A DNA stretch of 42,545 nt. Source: Candidatus Sungbacteria bacterium RIFCSPLOWO2_02_FULL_51_17 (GTDB lineage: Bacteria > Patescibacteriota > Minisyncoccia > Sungbacterales > GWA2-42-14). The notes beneath the pieces are model-generated. The model did not search any database. It was not told where the DNA came from and worked only from the letters and a program-made list of their open reading frames with translations. Positions 6,946-40,661 of the stretch are shown here, piece by piece. A program made the translations under genes and the position numbers. Within the stretch, counting starts at the first letter, position 1; the number at the start of each line of letters is the position of its first letter. The stretch is taken from positions 19,641 through 62,185 of the forward strand of contig MHQW01000041.1 of assembly GCA_001820785.1 (NCBI GenBank), in the 5' to 3' direction.

Positions 6946-8868
6946 CTAGGGCTGAACATTCCATTCATCGGTCTTGGAGCGCGGATCTTCCCGCAGTTGC
7001 GTATCAAGAGCATTCGCTTTGAAAAGATAACTCTTCTCCGTGAACGCATCCACGCCCGATATAACAAGATTGTCCAAAAGCAACGGCGCTTGTCCCACAA
7101 GATTTTCGCCAGGAGTCAAGGACACCATGAACATAATGGTCAGTCGTGGCAATAAAATGCCCGTCCCAGCATCCAGTATCCCGATATCCCATACAATCTC
7201 GCCCGTGCTTTCGTTCACGCGAAGCTTTTCCGTCTTGTCGCCCGTGAGGATAGTAAGCCATTTCACATTTCCTGGCAAGCTGGCAGTGACCTTGGTTTCT
7301 TTGACGGCATTTCCAAGATTTCCGACCTGCCAGATAATGGTATACCCCGTTTCTTTGCCAACACTCGGTGGCAGAGTTCCCCGCACTCCAAGGGGCGAAC
7401 CATAATGGGTCGCCCGCGCAAGAAGAGACGGGCGGGAGTGTAATTTTATATCAACATCATCGCGATACTCTATCTGCACGCCCGCAAGAGATGCAAGAAC
7501 CGCCTTCGTATCAATGGTTACGGACGATCTCAACATAAAATTCTTGTCATCCGCTGTGCGGATAGGCGGTTGCTTTTTGAGCCGGACGATAAACGAAAGA
7601 TCTCCGGATTCGCCCGGTGAAAGCTCCTTTAGGCCGGCATTCGTTCCCGCGTTCCAAACAATCTCGTGCGAATTGCCATCATAAAACCCATCTTTAATAT
7701 TGAGAGTTGCCATCTCAAGAACCGCCTCGGTTAGTTTCGCTTTCACAAACACATCCTTGATCGCCTCGCGATAGCTATTCCGGTACTTCAGAACAAAATG
7801 CAATTCTTCTCCCGGATCGGCCATATACACGGCCTGCCCGTTCACCTCCTGACGAACGTATAGGGGCGCCCCCGCAATGCGGGAATCCTTTCTCACCTCG
7901 GCATATGTCGTCCACTCGCGCGTGTCATCGGTATACGTTCCTATGCGTCCGACGAACGCCTTGATCTCTTCAGGTGATCCCTTAATGCGCCCCCGAACGT
8001 GTATCTTTTTGGTAGCGCGCGGATGCAGGTCCCCCAAAAACCAGATATTTTTTGTCTCAAACGACGGAGCGATATCCGAAGAAATATATTCAAACCCCAC
8101 CGGATAATCAAGACCAAAAGAAATATTTGGAAACAGCGACTCCGAAATAGAATCAATGGTCACATCAATATCAACCTCCTGGCCGGAACGCACTTCTTCG
8201 GGAAACGACACCGCAACAACGACCGGCACCTTCGACAAAATAGTCGTCCAAGAAAATTTCTCCGTAAGTTTTGATTGCAAATGCTCCGGCCGATAAATAA
8301 GCAGTGCTTCCGCGCTCTTTTCTTCCTGTTCTAGTCCAAAAAGTTCCGCAGAAAATTCATAGCGCTTGGTCTCGCCGACCTCTACGTCGCCGATCTTGAC
8401 CCGCTCCCGAAGCGAGCTTTTCGCCGAGGCCGATTCCGTCACGGGTATTGCGCCCTTCGGATAGGTGAACACCAGCTCCACATCTTTGAACGGAACACTG
8501 CTTCTGTTCTCCACTAACACCTCCCACCGGACCCTATCCCCCACACCGGCCTCGGCGCCGGAAAGTATGACAAGGCCCGCCTCAATGCGAGTGGAATTCA
8601 GTTGATAATAGATGAACACTCCCAACCCGAGAATGACCAGCGCGCCAATGCCAATGAAGGCATAGAGCAGACGATGCGACGGTTCCGCCTCCGCCTCGCT
8701 GTACGATCGCCGAAGAAGCCCGTCGTCGGTAGTGCCGGTCCAGGTGTGCTTCGTGCCATCATCTTCATGGCGACGCGTTATTTCAATGAAGTCCTCGTCC
8801 TCGGAACGGCGGGACTCGACGCCTTCCTTTGAATATATTTTTTTTTGAAGATCCTCTATTTTTCCCAT
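6946..8868 (-). CDS. Large single-TM protein with DUF11-like beta-sandwich repeats, probably surface exposed
   Basis: N-terminal charged cytoplasmic segment, TM (LLYAFIGIGALVILGLGVFIYYQL), then repeated blocks such as RVRWEVLVENRSSVPFKDVELVFTYP. Confidence 0.6.
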   Translation of the reverse strand: MGKIEDLQKKIYSKEGVESRRSEDEDFIEITRRHEDDGTKHTWTGTTDDGLLRRSYSEAEAEPSHRLLYAFIGIGALVILGLGVFIYYQLNSTRIEAGLVILSGAEAGVGDRVRWEVLVENRSSVPFKDVELVFTYPKGAIPVTESASAKSSLRERVKIGDVEVGETKRYEFSAELFGLEQEEKSAEALLIYRPEHLQSKLTEKFSWTTILSKVPVVVAVSFPEEVRSGQEVDIDVTIDSISESLFPNISFGLDYPVGFEYISSDIAPSFETKNIWFLGDLHPRATKKIHVRGRIKGSPEEIKAFVGRIGTYTDDTREWTTYAEVRKDSRIAGAPLYVRQEVNGQAVYMADPGEELHFVLKYRNSYREAIKDVFVKAKLTEAVLEMATLNIKDGFYDGNSHEIVWNAGTNAGLKELSPGESGDLSFIVRLKKQPPIRTADDKNFMLRSSVTIDTKAVLASLAGVQIEYRDDVDIKLHSRPSLLARATHYGSPLGVRGTLPPSVGKETGYTIIWQVGNLGNAVKETKVTASLPGNVKWLTILTGDKTEKLRVNESTGEIVWDIGILDAGTGILLPRLTIMFMVSLTPGENLVGQAPLLLDNLVISGVDAFTEKSYLFKANALDTQLREDPRSKTDEWNVQP

Positions 8869-17405: not shown

Positions 17406-17838
17406 GGGGGCGCAAGGCCTCGATAGATCATTAAGAGTACAGGAGACCAGGCCGAGGACGTACGGTCACCTCGTAAATCATCCGACAAAAAAATAAGTGC
17501 AAACTTATCTACATGGCAAAAAGCTTTTGCTGCCTTCAACGGTCGCATCGGCTTTGCGCCGGCTTTTGCCTAACAAGGCATAGCTCCATCCCGCTTTTCA
17601 TTTGAAAAAATGAAGCGGGACATCGTCCTCACTGGCGCCTGACCGGGGAGTACACGGTGTTATACATTCGGGCTTGGCCGCGCGTGTTTCCGAACTTCGC
17701 GGCGACATCTTTCGGAAGAGCACAAAGGTTTTCCTCCCGGCTACCATCCTTTATGCTCTAAAAAATTCAGCCGGGATATGTCTGTACCATCTCTTGCACC
17801 GTATGATCTACACGTGGGTTCAATTCCCACCGTCTCCA
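17406..17838 (+). ncRNA. ssrA: tmRNA (ssrA), CCA not encoded
   Basis: 5' GGGGGCG pairs with 3' CGTCTCC; T-arm GTGGGTTCAATTCCCAC; P2 TAGATCAT/ATGATCTA plus AGAG/CTCT and TACAG/CTGTA; tag reading frame at 17499-17573; smpB adjacent. Confidence 0.93.
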
Positions 17839-17944
17839 CATGATAAAATTACCGCTTGGACAGCGGTAATTTTGGTATAGAGATAACGGGAGGGAAAACT
17901 ATAGTTATAAATGCTAGTAAATACTTGACTGTTTGTATTTTTTC

Positions 17945-30624: not shown

Positions 30625-30634
30625 AGTGAGCACC

Positions 30635-30658
30635 GATCGGCCTTGGCCGATCTTTTTA
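30635..30658 (+). terminator. Intrinsic terminator
   Basis: GATCGGCC-tt-GGCCGATC-tttttatt. Confidence 0.85.
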
Positions 30659-30810
30659 TTCTCCCCGCCTTCCTCCCCGCAGCTTGCTGCGGGGAGGAAG
30701 GCGGGGAGAATACCCTTCCGAAGCTCGCCGCAGGCGAGCGAAGGAGGGTATTCCGCTACGGAAGAATTCCGCAAGATACCGCGTAGCACTGCTGCGCGGA
30801 GCTTCATTTT
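30659..30810. repeat. Tandem long inverted repeats (25-2-25 perfect palindrome plus two further hairpins)
   Basis: TTCTCCCCGCCTTCCTCCCCGCAGC-TT-GCTGCGGGGAGGAAGGCGGGGAGAA, then AATACCCTTC..GCTCGCC-gca-GGCGAGC..GAAGGAGGGTATT. Confidence 0.85.
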
Positions 30811-36673: not shown

Positions 36674-37957
36674 TCAATCAAGAAGATCCGAAAGACGTGC
36701 GGCGCAAAATGGGATAAGTAGCTCCTCCAAAGAAAGTCCGCCGTGCGTTCCGCGAAGCCGCGTCGGATCTTTGCGGTACTCCCGATGCCAAATAAGGTTC
36801 TCTCCACGCGGCAGAATAAGCACGTTCCCAATACGGTCAAGAAACCGTTGGCACGGCGTACCGATCCCGAAAAGGCCGCACGCTATCGCATCCTCCGTCA
36901 GAAGAACTTCAGCCACTCCATCAAGCACGGTCCGTAAATGCGCAACGCACTCCATTCTTCTTTGCGGGTTTACAAAAAGAAATGTGTCGCGAGCGGATCC
37001 CGTCGGCATGATCTTGGCGCCGTTTCCTCCCTTCACACAATACTCGCCAAGCGGCACCAGATCATCAAGGTACACGATATTCTCCGGCCGTACCGCTATC
37101 TGTCCGTGATCGGCAGTAAGGAGAAGAGACACTTTCGCCGCCGCTTCCCGGCTCATGCGACACTTTCGCAGGAACTCCTCCACGATAAGAGTTGAGAACA
37201 TGTTCGTCTCGGAATAATGTTCCGCGCTTTCGGGCCCGAATTCGTGTTCGGCGATGTCTATCGGGTCCCAGTAGACAAAAAAATATCCCGGCCCGGAATC
37301 GGCCTCCACCAATACCCGAAGTTTTACCATAAGGTCGAAGCCGCGCGTGAACGGCACGACGGAACTGCCACGAAACGTCGCACGAGAAAAAGTGCTTTCG
37401 GCATACCCTTTGTTCGCAAATACATATGAGGGCACGCCGACCCGCCGCAACTCTTCATATATGGTCGGGCCATCATAGAGCATCTCGGGAGTCCCGCCCA
37501 TCGCCAACAATTGGTCACGCTCCTTGCCATGATACGGCGTAAACGGAATCGTTTGAATCACCATGTCAAACTCCTTAAAATACACGTTCCACTCCGGAAG
37601 CCCATGCTCCTGCGGAGAAAGCCCCGAGTGCACTGCGGTAAGCCCGGCGGCGGTCGTTGTAGGAAATATCGTCGTAAGAGCGCTTATACTGCCGAATATC
37701 CTAAAAAGTTCAAACAGACGATTACCGGCGTTCCGCGCGCGCACCAGATGGTTGTATCCAAGCCCGTCGGCAAAGAAGAGAATGATCTTCTCGGCACCTG
37801 TGGTGTGTTTCAGATATGAGCTGTTTTGCAGTACGGGCCGCCCGTTACCAATGCCAAAGTGAGAAAGGACCATTGCGGGCACCTCAACAAGCGAGGCGCC
37901 GCCATAGCGCGGAAGCATGGGAAAAGAAGCAAGTTCTTTTGGAAGTTGTTTTTTCAA
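36674..37957 (-). CDS. Alkaline phosphatase-superfamily phosphodiesterase
   Basis: IILFFADGLGYNHL, IFPTTTAAGLTAVHSGLSPQEHGL, VSLLLTADHGQI, GTHGGLSLEELLIP. Confidence 0.88.
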   Translation of the reverse strand: MKKQLPKELASFPMLPRYGGASLVEVPAMVLSHFGIGNGRPVLQNSSYLKHTTGAEKIILFFADGLGYNHLVRARNAGNRLFELFRIFGSISALTTIFPTTTAAGLTAVHSGLSPQEHGLPEWNVYFKEFDMVIQTIPFTPYHGKERDQLLAMGGTPEMLYDGPTIYEELRRVGVPSYVFANKGYAESTFSRATFRGSSVVPFTRGFDLMVKLRVLVEADSGPGYFFVYWDPIDIAEHEFGPESAEHYSETNMFSTLIVEEFLRKCRMSREAAAKVSLLLTADHGQIAVRPENIVYLDDLVPLGEYCVKGGNGAKIMPTGSARDTFLFVNPQRRMECVAHLRTVLDGVAEVLLTEDAIACGLFGIGTPCQRFLDRIGNVLILPRGENLIWHREYRKDPTRLRGTHGGLSLEELLIPFCAARLSDLLD

Positions 37958-38084
37958 TGAGCACCTTATTCACCGATGTGAATATCCTATGCTATATCGC
38001 CATCCGCGCGCGGTCAACAGCGCCTTGACGGAAAAGATGGAATGCGCACATACTATTCATGGTACCTTTATACTAAAGGGATAT

Positions 38085-38567
38085 ATGTTCAGACCGAACG
38101 AAAACCGGATACTGCTGTGGGGAGCCATACTGTTCTTCGCGACCCTCATAGTGGGAGTAGCTCTTATACCGATGGGTGGCACAACCGTCACTAGAGAAGC
38201 GATACCCGATGAGCGGGTACAGCACGTTGAGCGGGTCCTCATCCATGATCTTGGCGATACGAACGGGAACTTCACCCTGTTCATACAAGAGCCAGGATCG
38301 CAAGAACTCAAACCGATGCGGATATATGCGAAAACGTATCGCGTCGTAAAAGACGTTCCTCGCAATAGCCCCATGTGGGCGATAAAAGGACAGCTCGTCA
38401 AAATCAAGCACAACGATCCCAGTTACGATTATGTAACAGTGGGATCTCTGGAACTTCACATCCGCAATGAGAAAGATCTGGAAGGAGCCGCATGGGAGCG
38501 AACGTACCACCGGAATAAATCAACCGTGACGGAGCGAGGCGCGACTATTGTTCTTTGTTGTCAGTAG
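38085..38567 (+). CDS. Hypothetical single-TM protein
   Basis: MFRPNENRILLWGAILFFATLIVGVALIP...; AAGGGA upstream; terminator CCGCC/GGCGG downstream. Confidence 0.65.
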   Translation: MFRPNENRILLWGAILFFATLIVGVALIPMGGTTVTREAIPDERVQHVERVLIHDLGDTNGNFTLFIQEPGSQELKPMRIYAKTYRVVKDVPRNSPMWAIKGQLVKIKHNDPSYDYVTVGSLELHIRNEKDLEGAAWERTYHRNKSTVTERGATIVLCCQ

Positions 38568-38574
38568 TAAGAAT

Positions 38575-38599
38575 ATCCGCCAAATACCGGCGGATTTTT
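38575..38599 (+). terminator. CCGCC-N-GGCGG intrinsic terminator
   Basis: atccgccaaataccggcggattttt. Confidence 0.9.
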
Positions 38600-38661
38600 C
38601 AGTATCGGCGCGCGGTTAAAGCTCTAAAAGCAGCTTACATACGCATTGGTACACCAAACTC

Positions 38662-38691
38662 TTGACATTTATGCTTTGCACATGCTACACT
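38662..38691 (+). promoter_or_regulatory. Promoter TTGACA-18-TACACT
   Basis: Upstream of the structured RNA and typA. Confidence 0.65.
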
Positions 38692-38707
38692 GCGACTGCG
38701 AGCAGTG

Positions 38708-38799
38708 CCCCCTCTTGTGGTCCCGCGCCAACGCGGGATGAAGCTCTGAAAAGAGCTTAGCCTCCTCGGAGGCAAACCACTGGAAGGGGTTCTTTTTTT
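38708..38799 (+). ncRNA. Candidate cloverleaf-shaped structured RNA / typA leader ending in a U-tract
   Basis: Outer helix CCCCCTCTTGTGGT/ACCACTGGAAGGGG; hairpins CCCGCG-CCAA-CGCGGG, AAGCTCT-GAAA-AGAGCTT, GCCTC-CTCG-GAGGC; then TTCTTTTTTT. Confidence 0.65.
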
Positions 38800-38843
38800 G
38801 AATGCACGACCGAAAGCAAACGCAATAATTTCTTACCCGCACC

Positions 38844-40661
38844 ATGAACATCAGAAATGTCGCGATCATCGCGCACGTAGACCATGGCAAAACCACATTG
38901 GTGGACGCCTTACTGCGTCAATCCCAGACAAAAATGACGAAGGAGATGTCCGATCGGGAATTTATCATGGACTCAAACGAGCTTGAGCGCGAACGAGGCA
39001 TCACTATTTTTTCAAAAAATGCCTCGGTCACCTGGGAGGGAACGAAAATAAATATCATTGATACGCCGGGACATGCCGACTTCGGCGGCGAGGTTGAGCG
39101 GGTCCTCACCATGGCTGACGGATGTCTTCTTCTCGTTGACGCAAAGGAAGGGCCCATGCCGCAAACCCGCTTCGTGCTCAAACAAGCGCTTGCAAAAAAA
39201 CTCCGCATCATCGTTGTCATCAATAAAATTGATAAACCCGATGCCCGCCCCGACTTTGTGCTTGATAAAACATTTGACCTCTTCATGGAATTGGGCGCAG
39301 ATGATGCAATCGCTGATTTTCCGGTGGTGTACGCCGCGGCAAAACTCGGAAAAGCCGGGGCAACGCCGGCTATTTCAGGCATGCGCGACATCACCCCCAT
39401 ATTTGAAGCGATCCTTGCGCATGTCCCCGCTCCTCACGGAGACCCAGCAAAACCGCTACAAATGCTTATCACAACCATAGGCGCAGACGAGTTCAAAGGG
39501 CGCATCGCCACCGGCCGCGTATATAACGGCATTCTTAGGGCGGGGCAAGACATCGCACACATCGCGCGCGATGGAAGCATAAAAAAATACCGCCTCCCTT
39601 CTATTATGACCTTCACCGGACTTGAACGGATAGATACAACCGAGGTCTTTGCGGGCGACATTGCCGCACTTTCCGGCATTCCCGGTATCACCATCGGCGA
39701 AACAATAGCCGATCCCGAACATCCGTCAGCCCTGCCGCTTCTTACCATAGAAGAGCCGACGGTGAAGATGAATTTCCAAGTCAACGATTCTCCTTTCTGC
39801 GGACAGGAATCGCAATTTTCCACATCACGCCAGGTGCGAGAGCGGTTATTCCGGGAACTAGAAACGGACACGGCGCTTTCGGTCGTTGACGGAACCGATA
39901 ATGATTGGATCGTATCGGGCCGCGGAGAATTGCATCTTGCAATCCTCATAGAGCGCCTGCGCCGTGAAGGATACGAATTCCAGGTATCGCGCCCGCAGGT
40001 CATCACCAAAGAAGCGAACGGAAAAACCATGACGCCATACGAACAAGTGTTCATTGAAACGCCAGAGGCATACGGCGGAAGCATCATACAAAAACTTGGC
40101 CAGCGCAAAGGCACGCTTCAGAACATGAGAACCGAAAACGGTATCGCATTTTTAGAATTCACCATCCCAACGCGCGGGCTTTTCGGATATCGCACGGAAT
40201 TTCTTACCGATACCAAGGGCCTCGGCATCATCAATACGATGTTTGACGGGTACCGCGAAGATCCGGGCGGATGGAATGAGCGCAACCAGGGATCACTTAT
40301 CGCACACGAAACGGGACTTACAAATATGTATGGCATGGTAAATGTGCAGGACCGCGGGACGCTTTTTCTAGGCCCTGGGATCAACGTGTATAAAGGTCAG
40401 GTGGTCGGACAGCACTCGCGCTCAAACGACCTTCACGTGAATGTGTGCAAAACAAAGGAACTCTCAAATATGCGATCAAAAAATGATGCGGCTGCCGAGC
40501 ACTTTAACGCGCCGCGCATCATGGACCTGGAAGACGCGCTTGAGTACATCGGCGACGATGAGCTTGTTGAGGTAACGCCCAAAAACATCCGCATCAGAAA
40601 AATGATACTGGACGCGTCGGAACATAAGCGCAAACAAGCCCTCGGATTCATCCCGCGGTAA
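38844..40661 (+). CDS. typA: Translational GTPase TypA/BipA
   Basis: NVAIIAHVDHGKTTLVDALLRQS, RERGITIFSKNASV, DTPGHADFGGEVERVL, full-length domain content. Confidence 0.96.
   Translation: MNIRNVAIIAHVDHGKTTLVDALLRQSQTKMTKEMSDREFIMDSNELERERGITIFSKNASVTWEGTKINIIDTPGHADFGGEVERVLTMADGCLLLVDAKEGPMPQTRFVLKQALAKKLRIIVVINKIDKPDARPDFVLDKTFDLFMELGADDAIADFPVVYAAAKLGKAGATPAISGMRDITPIFEAILAHVPAPHGDPAKPLQMLITTIGADEFKGRIATGRVYNGILRAGQDIAHIARDGSIKKYRLPSIMTFTGLERIDTTEVFAGDIAALSGIPGITIGETIADPEHPSALPLLTIEEPTVKMNFQVNDSPFCGQESQFSTSRQVRERLFRELETDTALSVVDGTDNDWIVSGRGELHLAILIERLRREGYEFQVSRPQVITKEANGKTMTPYEQVFIETPEAYGGSIIQKLGQRKGTLQNMRTENGIAFLEFTIPTRGLFGYRTEFLTDTKGLGIINTMFDGYREDPGGWNERNQGSLIAHETGLTNMYGMVNVQDRGTLFLGPGINVYKGQVVGQHSRSNDLHVNVCKTKELSNMRSKNDAAAEHFNAPRIMDLEDALEYIGDDELVEVTPKNIRIRKMILDASEHKRKQALGFIPR

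Follow-up and report, generated by a model that had tools for sequence, protein, structure and literature searches.

A terminator-like leader recurs in front of typA in Patescibacteria and may act as a promoter-proximal attenuator

The window, i.e. the entire 42,545-nucleotide stretch of DNA considered here, belongs to a 1.24-Mb MAG (G000) of Ca. Sungbacteria (Patescibacteria). On its forward strand, positions 38844 to 40661 contain typA/bipA, which encodes a translational GTPase of 605 amino acids that matches TIGR01394 with 847.5 bits (cut-off 757.3) and carries the BipA_C domain PF21018. The closest named relative is Ca. Sungbacteria bacterium RIFCSPLOWO2_01_FULL_47_32, with 81% identity between the TypA proteins. 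The 5' neighbour of typA is an ORF at 37917-38567 that matches no family in NCBIfam or Pfam. It is separated from typA by a terminator-like hairpin with a T run (38575-38600, forward strand; ATCCGCCAAATACCGGCGGAT TTTTC), which lies just 3' of the ORF. Elsewhere in the window, ARAGORN identifies a tmRNA gene at about 17406-17841 with the tag ANLSTWQKAFAAFNGRIGFAPAFA.

The region between this hairpin and typA has the layout of a leader. A promoter of the sigma-70 type, TTGACA-18-TACACT, had been proposed from the sequence in an earlier note and was recovered both by eye and by a promoter scan. It occupies positions 38662-38691 of the forward strand, with TTGACA at 38662-38667, an 18-nt spacer and TACACT at 38686-38691; it has 10 of 12 consensus matches and a TG in front of the -10 box. 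Judged from these boxes, transcription is expected to start near 38697-38699. A structured RNA follows (38707-38790, forward strand), and directly at the 3' side of its outer helix lies a U tract, TCTTTTTTT (38791-38799, forward strand), which reads TTCTTTTTTT if U38790, a partner in the outermost G-U pair, is counted in. The tract resembles the end of an intrinsic terminator. The spacer between the U tract and the start codon (38800-38843, forward strand) has 44 nt, and no Shine-Dalgarno-like sequence was read in the window ahead of the ATG at 38844. This agrees with the earlier description of a T tract straight after the structure and of a typA gene that starts shortly downstream without an obvious Shine-Dalgarno sequence. 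The promoter scan called nothing within the spacer, and by reading only a poor promoter-like match, TTGAAT-20-AATAAT, was seen there. The gene expected to be under the presumed control of the leader is typA.

The minimum free energy fold of the leader is a four-way junction with three perfect hairpins, in which every element of the previously described structure is present. The outer helix P1 (38707-38721 with 38776-38790) has 13 pairs and two mismatches, C.A and U.U, and is extended by one outer G-U pair relative to the original description. It pairs G38707 with U38790, C38708 to C38711 with G38786 to G38789, U38713 to U38715 with G38782 to A38784, and G38717 to U38721 with A38776 to C38780. 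P1 encloses P2 (38722-38737, CCCGCG-CCAA-CGCGGG), P3 (38741-38758, AAGCUCU-GAAA-AGAGCUU, with a GAAA loop) and P4 (38760-38773, GCCUC-CUCG-GAGGC), and the joints of the junction measure 0, 3, 1 and 2 nt. The fold of 38695-38800 reaches -52.5 kcal/mol, with a z-score of -5.07 against dinucleotide shuffles, and none of 200 shuffles was as good. Equal stability was found in 24 of 12,000 sampled 106-nt windows of the genome (8 of 3,355 when matched for GC), which places the leader among the most stable 0.2%. In a longer sequence context, the inner pairs of P1 have probabilities of about 0.95-1.0, except for the last one with 0.55, and the outer pairs of about 0.75-0.8.

P1 is the closing helix of a multi-branched structure and in this respect differs from a classical terminator hairpin. 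When growing transcripts were folded, a weak 5' hairpin formed together with P2 to P4 before the 3' strand of P1 existed; apart from this weak hairpin, which precedes P1, the truncation series revealed no clear antiterminator that competes with P1. The suggestion that the RNA might be a thermosensor is not borne out in its simple form, because the predicted fold stays the same between 5 and 70 °C except for the outer closing pairs. The absence of tRNA, SRP, 6S or RNase P likeness holds: Rfam, with its riboswitch, T-box and ribosomal-protein leader families, returned no match to the leader stretch at gathering thresholds or at E<=10, and ARAGORN called neither a tRNA nor a tmRNA in it, the tmRNA near 17406 being its sole call in the window.

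The four-way junction was found in this genome only. BLASTN of the leader against 55 relatives produced just chance matches of 14-25 nt. A covariance model built from the single sequence and run on 286 class genomes retrieved itself and two marginal matches (E about 0.04) and no homologue, so the junction was seen in none of the 285 other class genomes by a search whose strict filters could miss diverged copies. The pairs of P1 to P4 therefore have no covariation support. Within G000, the junction matches itself once and has no further copy, and thus it is not a repeat family. As the nearest genomes compared belong to a different genus, the absence beyond the genus says little about a function inside it.

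The position of a hairpin with a T tract in front of typA is nevertheless shared by all six genomes of the window's family. Five of them have a compact version, namely GGCCTTTGGGCC-TCTTTTT in G001, GGCCCAGAAGGCC-TTTTTT in G002, CGGCTCATCCGGGCCG-TATTTGTTT in G003, GGCCATTGGCC-CATTTTTTT in G004 and GGGCCGGAACGGCCC-TTTTTT in G005, and only G000 has the four-way junction. With the compact form in five of six genomes, we infer that this form is probably ancestral and the junction derived, a polarity read from the distribution of the two forms over these six genomes. Conservation upstream of typA, which the earlier note had held to be decisive, thus applies to the architecture and not to the four-way junction.

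The same order recurs in typA leaders across the class: a promoter, a GC hairpin near the 5' end of the transcript, a T tract and the ATG. Typical examples are TTGACT-17-TATTAT...TGCCTTGGTCGCAAGGCA-TTTTTTT-ATG in L092 and TATAAT...GGCCTGGAGGCC-TATTTTTT-ATG in L087. In a strict scan, which demanded a promoter with at least 9 of 12 matches and a hairpin of -5 kcal/mol or better that ends at a T run no more than 60 nt from the start, 29 of 91 typA loci from 19 families were positive, whereas among the 969 other ORFs of the surrounding stretches only 13 were (odds ratio 34, Fisher p 1e-23), even though several start codons were allowed for each control ORF, a bias that favours the controls. By eye, many more typA loci fit the pattern although the strict scan missed them, e.g. 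L040, L195 and L196. In another scan, which covered 642 kb of DNA surrounding typA, the good matches were almost all at typA. Genome-wide terminator scans of G000 proved too permissive (6,412 matches) or were misled by in-frame start codons, and promoter-anchored and unconditioned tests were used instead.

The unconditioned test considered the strongest hairpin between the -10 box and the ATG, at -4 kcal/mol or better, and required no T tract. Such a hairpin was present in 43 of 51 promoter-bearing typA leaders and in 48 of 125 other promoter-bearing leaders from the same loci (p 2e-8), with mean z-scores against shuffled sequences of -2.1 and -0.6, respectively. In the 8 nt that follow the hairpin, the share of T was 62% for typA and 32% for the controls, and the 8 nt before the typA hairpins had 34%; at least five of the 8 nt downstream were T in 29 of 43 typA leaders versus 7 of 48 controls (p 4e-7). 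The loci share descent, by which all these p-values overstate independence, and it is safer to argue from the occurrence in 19 families. The typA hairpins begin at a median of 8 nt past the -10 box and end between 0 and over 50 nt before the ATG. In the relatives they are often short (-4.6 to -12 kcal/mol); such hairpins might terminate weakly or only stabilise the 5' end. Some typA loci have no leader hairpin, and at 45 of 96 typA loci no recognisable promoter was found within 160 nt. In a phylum-wide search, which did not require a promoter, 13 of 29 typA loci had a hairpin with T within 60 nt, one of the 29 (L206) being a class genome already counted; the trait may thus reach beyond the class, less cleanly.

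In the window and in its relatives alike, a promoter is followed by a GC-rich helix, immediately by a U tract and then by the gene, as expected of an attenuator. With moderate confidence, we interpret the typA leader as a promoter-proximal intrinsic terminator that is specific to typA in Patescibacteria and was elaborated in this species. Computation shows that the leader folds, that it has a U tract and a promoter, and that hairpin and U tract recur together in the class specifically at typA; from these features we predict that transcription can end at the tract and that read-through is regulated. The attenuator proposed in the earlier note thereby gains indirect backing. Its position, the U tract right 3' of the helix and the variable distance to the ATG argue for a leader terminator rather than for an element of ribosome binding, which would be expected at a fixed distance. 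Other genes carry the pattern far more rarely than typA, and this bias suggests an on/off switch dedicated to typA, seemingly one that has not been described.

Under this attenuator reading, RNA polymerase would start about 10 nt upstream of the structure and produce the folded RNA and the U tract. It would then either stop at the tract, releasing an RNA of roughly 100 nt, or continue into typA 44 nt further on. As the hairpins of the relatives start at approximately the first transcribed base, neither a separate sensor nor a leader peptide fits upstream of them, and thus control would act on the hairpin or on the polymerase itself. The most economical candidate for a regulator would be a cold-shock protein (Csp) that melts the hairpin, because in other bacteria BipA is chiefly important in the cold and is needed at low temperature (PMC6962249, PMC8313970). 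Csps act as antiterminators by melting terminator hairpins (PMC4956666), and G000 encodes one Csp gene; Csp-dependent antitermination at the typA leader is a plausible guess. In this species, the four-way junction may add a binding site for a protein or a ligand. More tentatively, and with less confidence than in the attenuator as such, we propose that the attenuator is class-wide and typA-specific, that a minimal 5'-end hairpin would serve as terminator and sensor at once, with RNA polymerase or an RNA chaperone as its reader, and that this species would have expanded it to a four-way-junction RNA that has gained a binding site.

Known leader attenuators in which an intrinsic terminator precedes a gene of translation or transcription include the rpsL- and greA/rnk-leaders (PMC2965389). 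The typA leader shares with them a terminator between promoter and start codon that is conserved in position and evolves fast in sequence; in contrast to them, its hairpin starts almost at the 5' end, and most members have no room for a sensor. The text of that survey does not name typA/bipA. Csp-controlled antitermination, as reported by Bae et al. 2000 (cited in PMC4956666), likewise involves terminator hairpins that precede genes required in the cold; for typA the parallel is an analogy, with one Csp gene shown to be present. A search of the open literature, with subscription papers and preprints outside the scope, turned up no paper that describes a leader of typA/bipA in Patescibacteria. 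Gene regulation in this phylum is almost unstudied, and a typA-tied leader, if true, would offer a tangible regulatory element, open to experiment, in a large part of it. TypA/BipA is a ribosome-assembly GTPase, and the position-conserved, terminator-like leader of its gene points to attenuation by a 5'-end hairpin without a sensor domain, unlike textbook attenuators.

A hairpin so close to where the transcript should begin (median 8 nt past the -10 box) is also what would be seen if the leader contained no terminator, its 5'-terminal stem-loop shielding the typA mRNA from 5'-end-dependent decay and the single-stranded U-rich stretch aiding ribosome loading at a start codon that lacks a Shine-Dalgarno sequence. 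The frequent contact between U tract and ATG points in the same direction. Protection, however, does not need the enrichment of T specifically right 3' of the hairpin (62% versus 34% before it), the spacing between U tract and ATG ranges between 0 and more than 50 nt, with 44 nt in the window, and the pattern is not displayed by the other genes of these stretches. We regard this explanation as unlikely.

Promoter, structured body and terminator also make up a complete unit for a trans-acting sRNA gene of about 100 nt, in which case typA would be read from another, weak promoter overlapping the T tract; the poor promoter-like match TTGAAT-20-AATAAT follows the unit. UpsM, an experimentally shown sRNA of Rhodobacter that is released at the terminator in the 268-nt leader of the dcw cluster (PMC5089854), sets a precedent: there, too, a promoter, a structured leader and an intrinsic terminator precede an important gene, and the typA terminator would likewise release a small RNA. 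The typA leader differs in that it belongs to an unrelated lineage, precedes an unrelated gene and is known by computation. The stand-alone sRNA considered in the earlier note has become less likely, because the T tract of the relatives often abuts the ATG, and a second promoter cannot fit where 0-10 nt separate them; moreover, no homologue of the RNA was found in the class by sequence (55 relatives) or structure (286 genomes), while the leader architecture is tied to typA. We rate an independent sRNA gene as distinctly improbable, while sRNA release could occur whichever way typA is controlled. Least of all do we believe that the structure is a common terminator cluster, or debris of hairpin-rich repeats, which belongs to the upstream gene and lies before typA by chance. 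Hairpins and inverted-repeat elements are indeed common in such genomes, and the latter also occur at the typA starts of several relatives. Yet the upstream ORF is already followed by a terminator of its own (38575-38600), a good promoter stands between that terminator and the structure, and the junction has no other copy in G000.

Short inverted-repeat, MITE-like elements with the termini ATCCCGTTAGA ... TCTAACGGGAT are located precisely at start codons. In their layout, ATGA-ATCCCGTTAGA ... TCTAACGGGAT-GAAC, the end of the element rebuilds the ATG. They were seen at the typA start of L062 (minus strand, ends near 7642 and 7759), in L063 (~9985), L075 (~936) and L082 (~2529), and in L036, L179 and L196, affecting typA in several families and also other genes; G002 has two in tandem. 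At typA, they separate the T tract of the leader from the ATG. In L174, L163 and L045, the real typA start is preceded by partial copies of its first codons (e.g. ATGGAAATTCGCAACACCC), a hairpin lies in between, and these partial duplications create short decoy ORFs.

Two further observations concern G000. On the plus strand of L156, near 10848, an ORF that by eye resembles rpsD (ribosomal protein S4) has a promoter, a strong hairpin and a T tract just 5' of its start. In the window, a 26-bp hairpin at 30655-30710, formed by ATTCTCCCCGCCTTCCTCCCCGCAGC and its complement around a 4-nt loop, adjoins the 3' side of a terminator-like hairpin at 30634-30657 and is the most stable structure among the 12,000 sampled windows of the genome.
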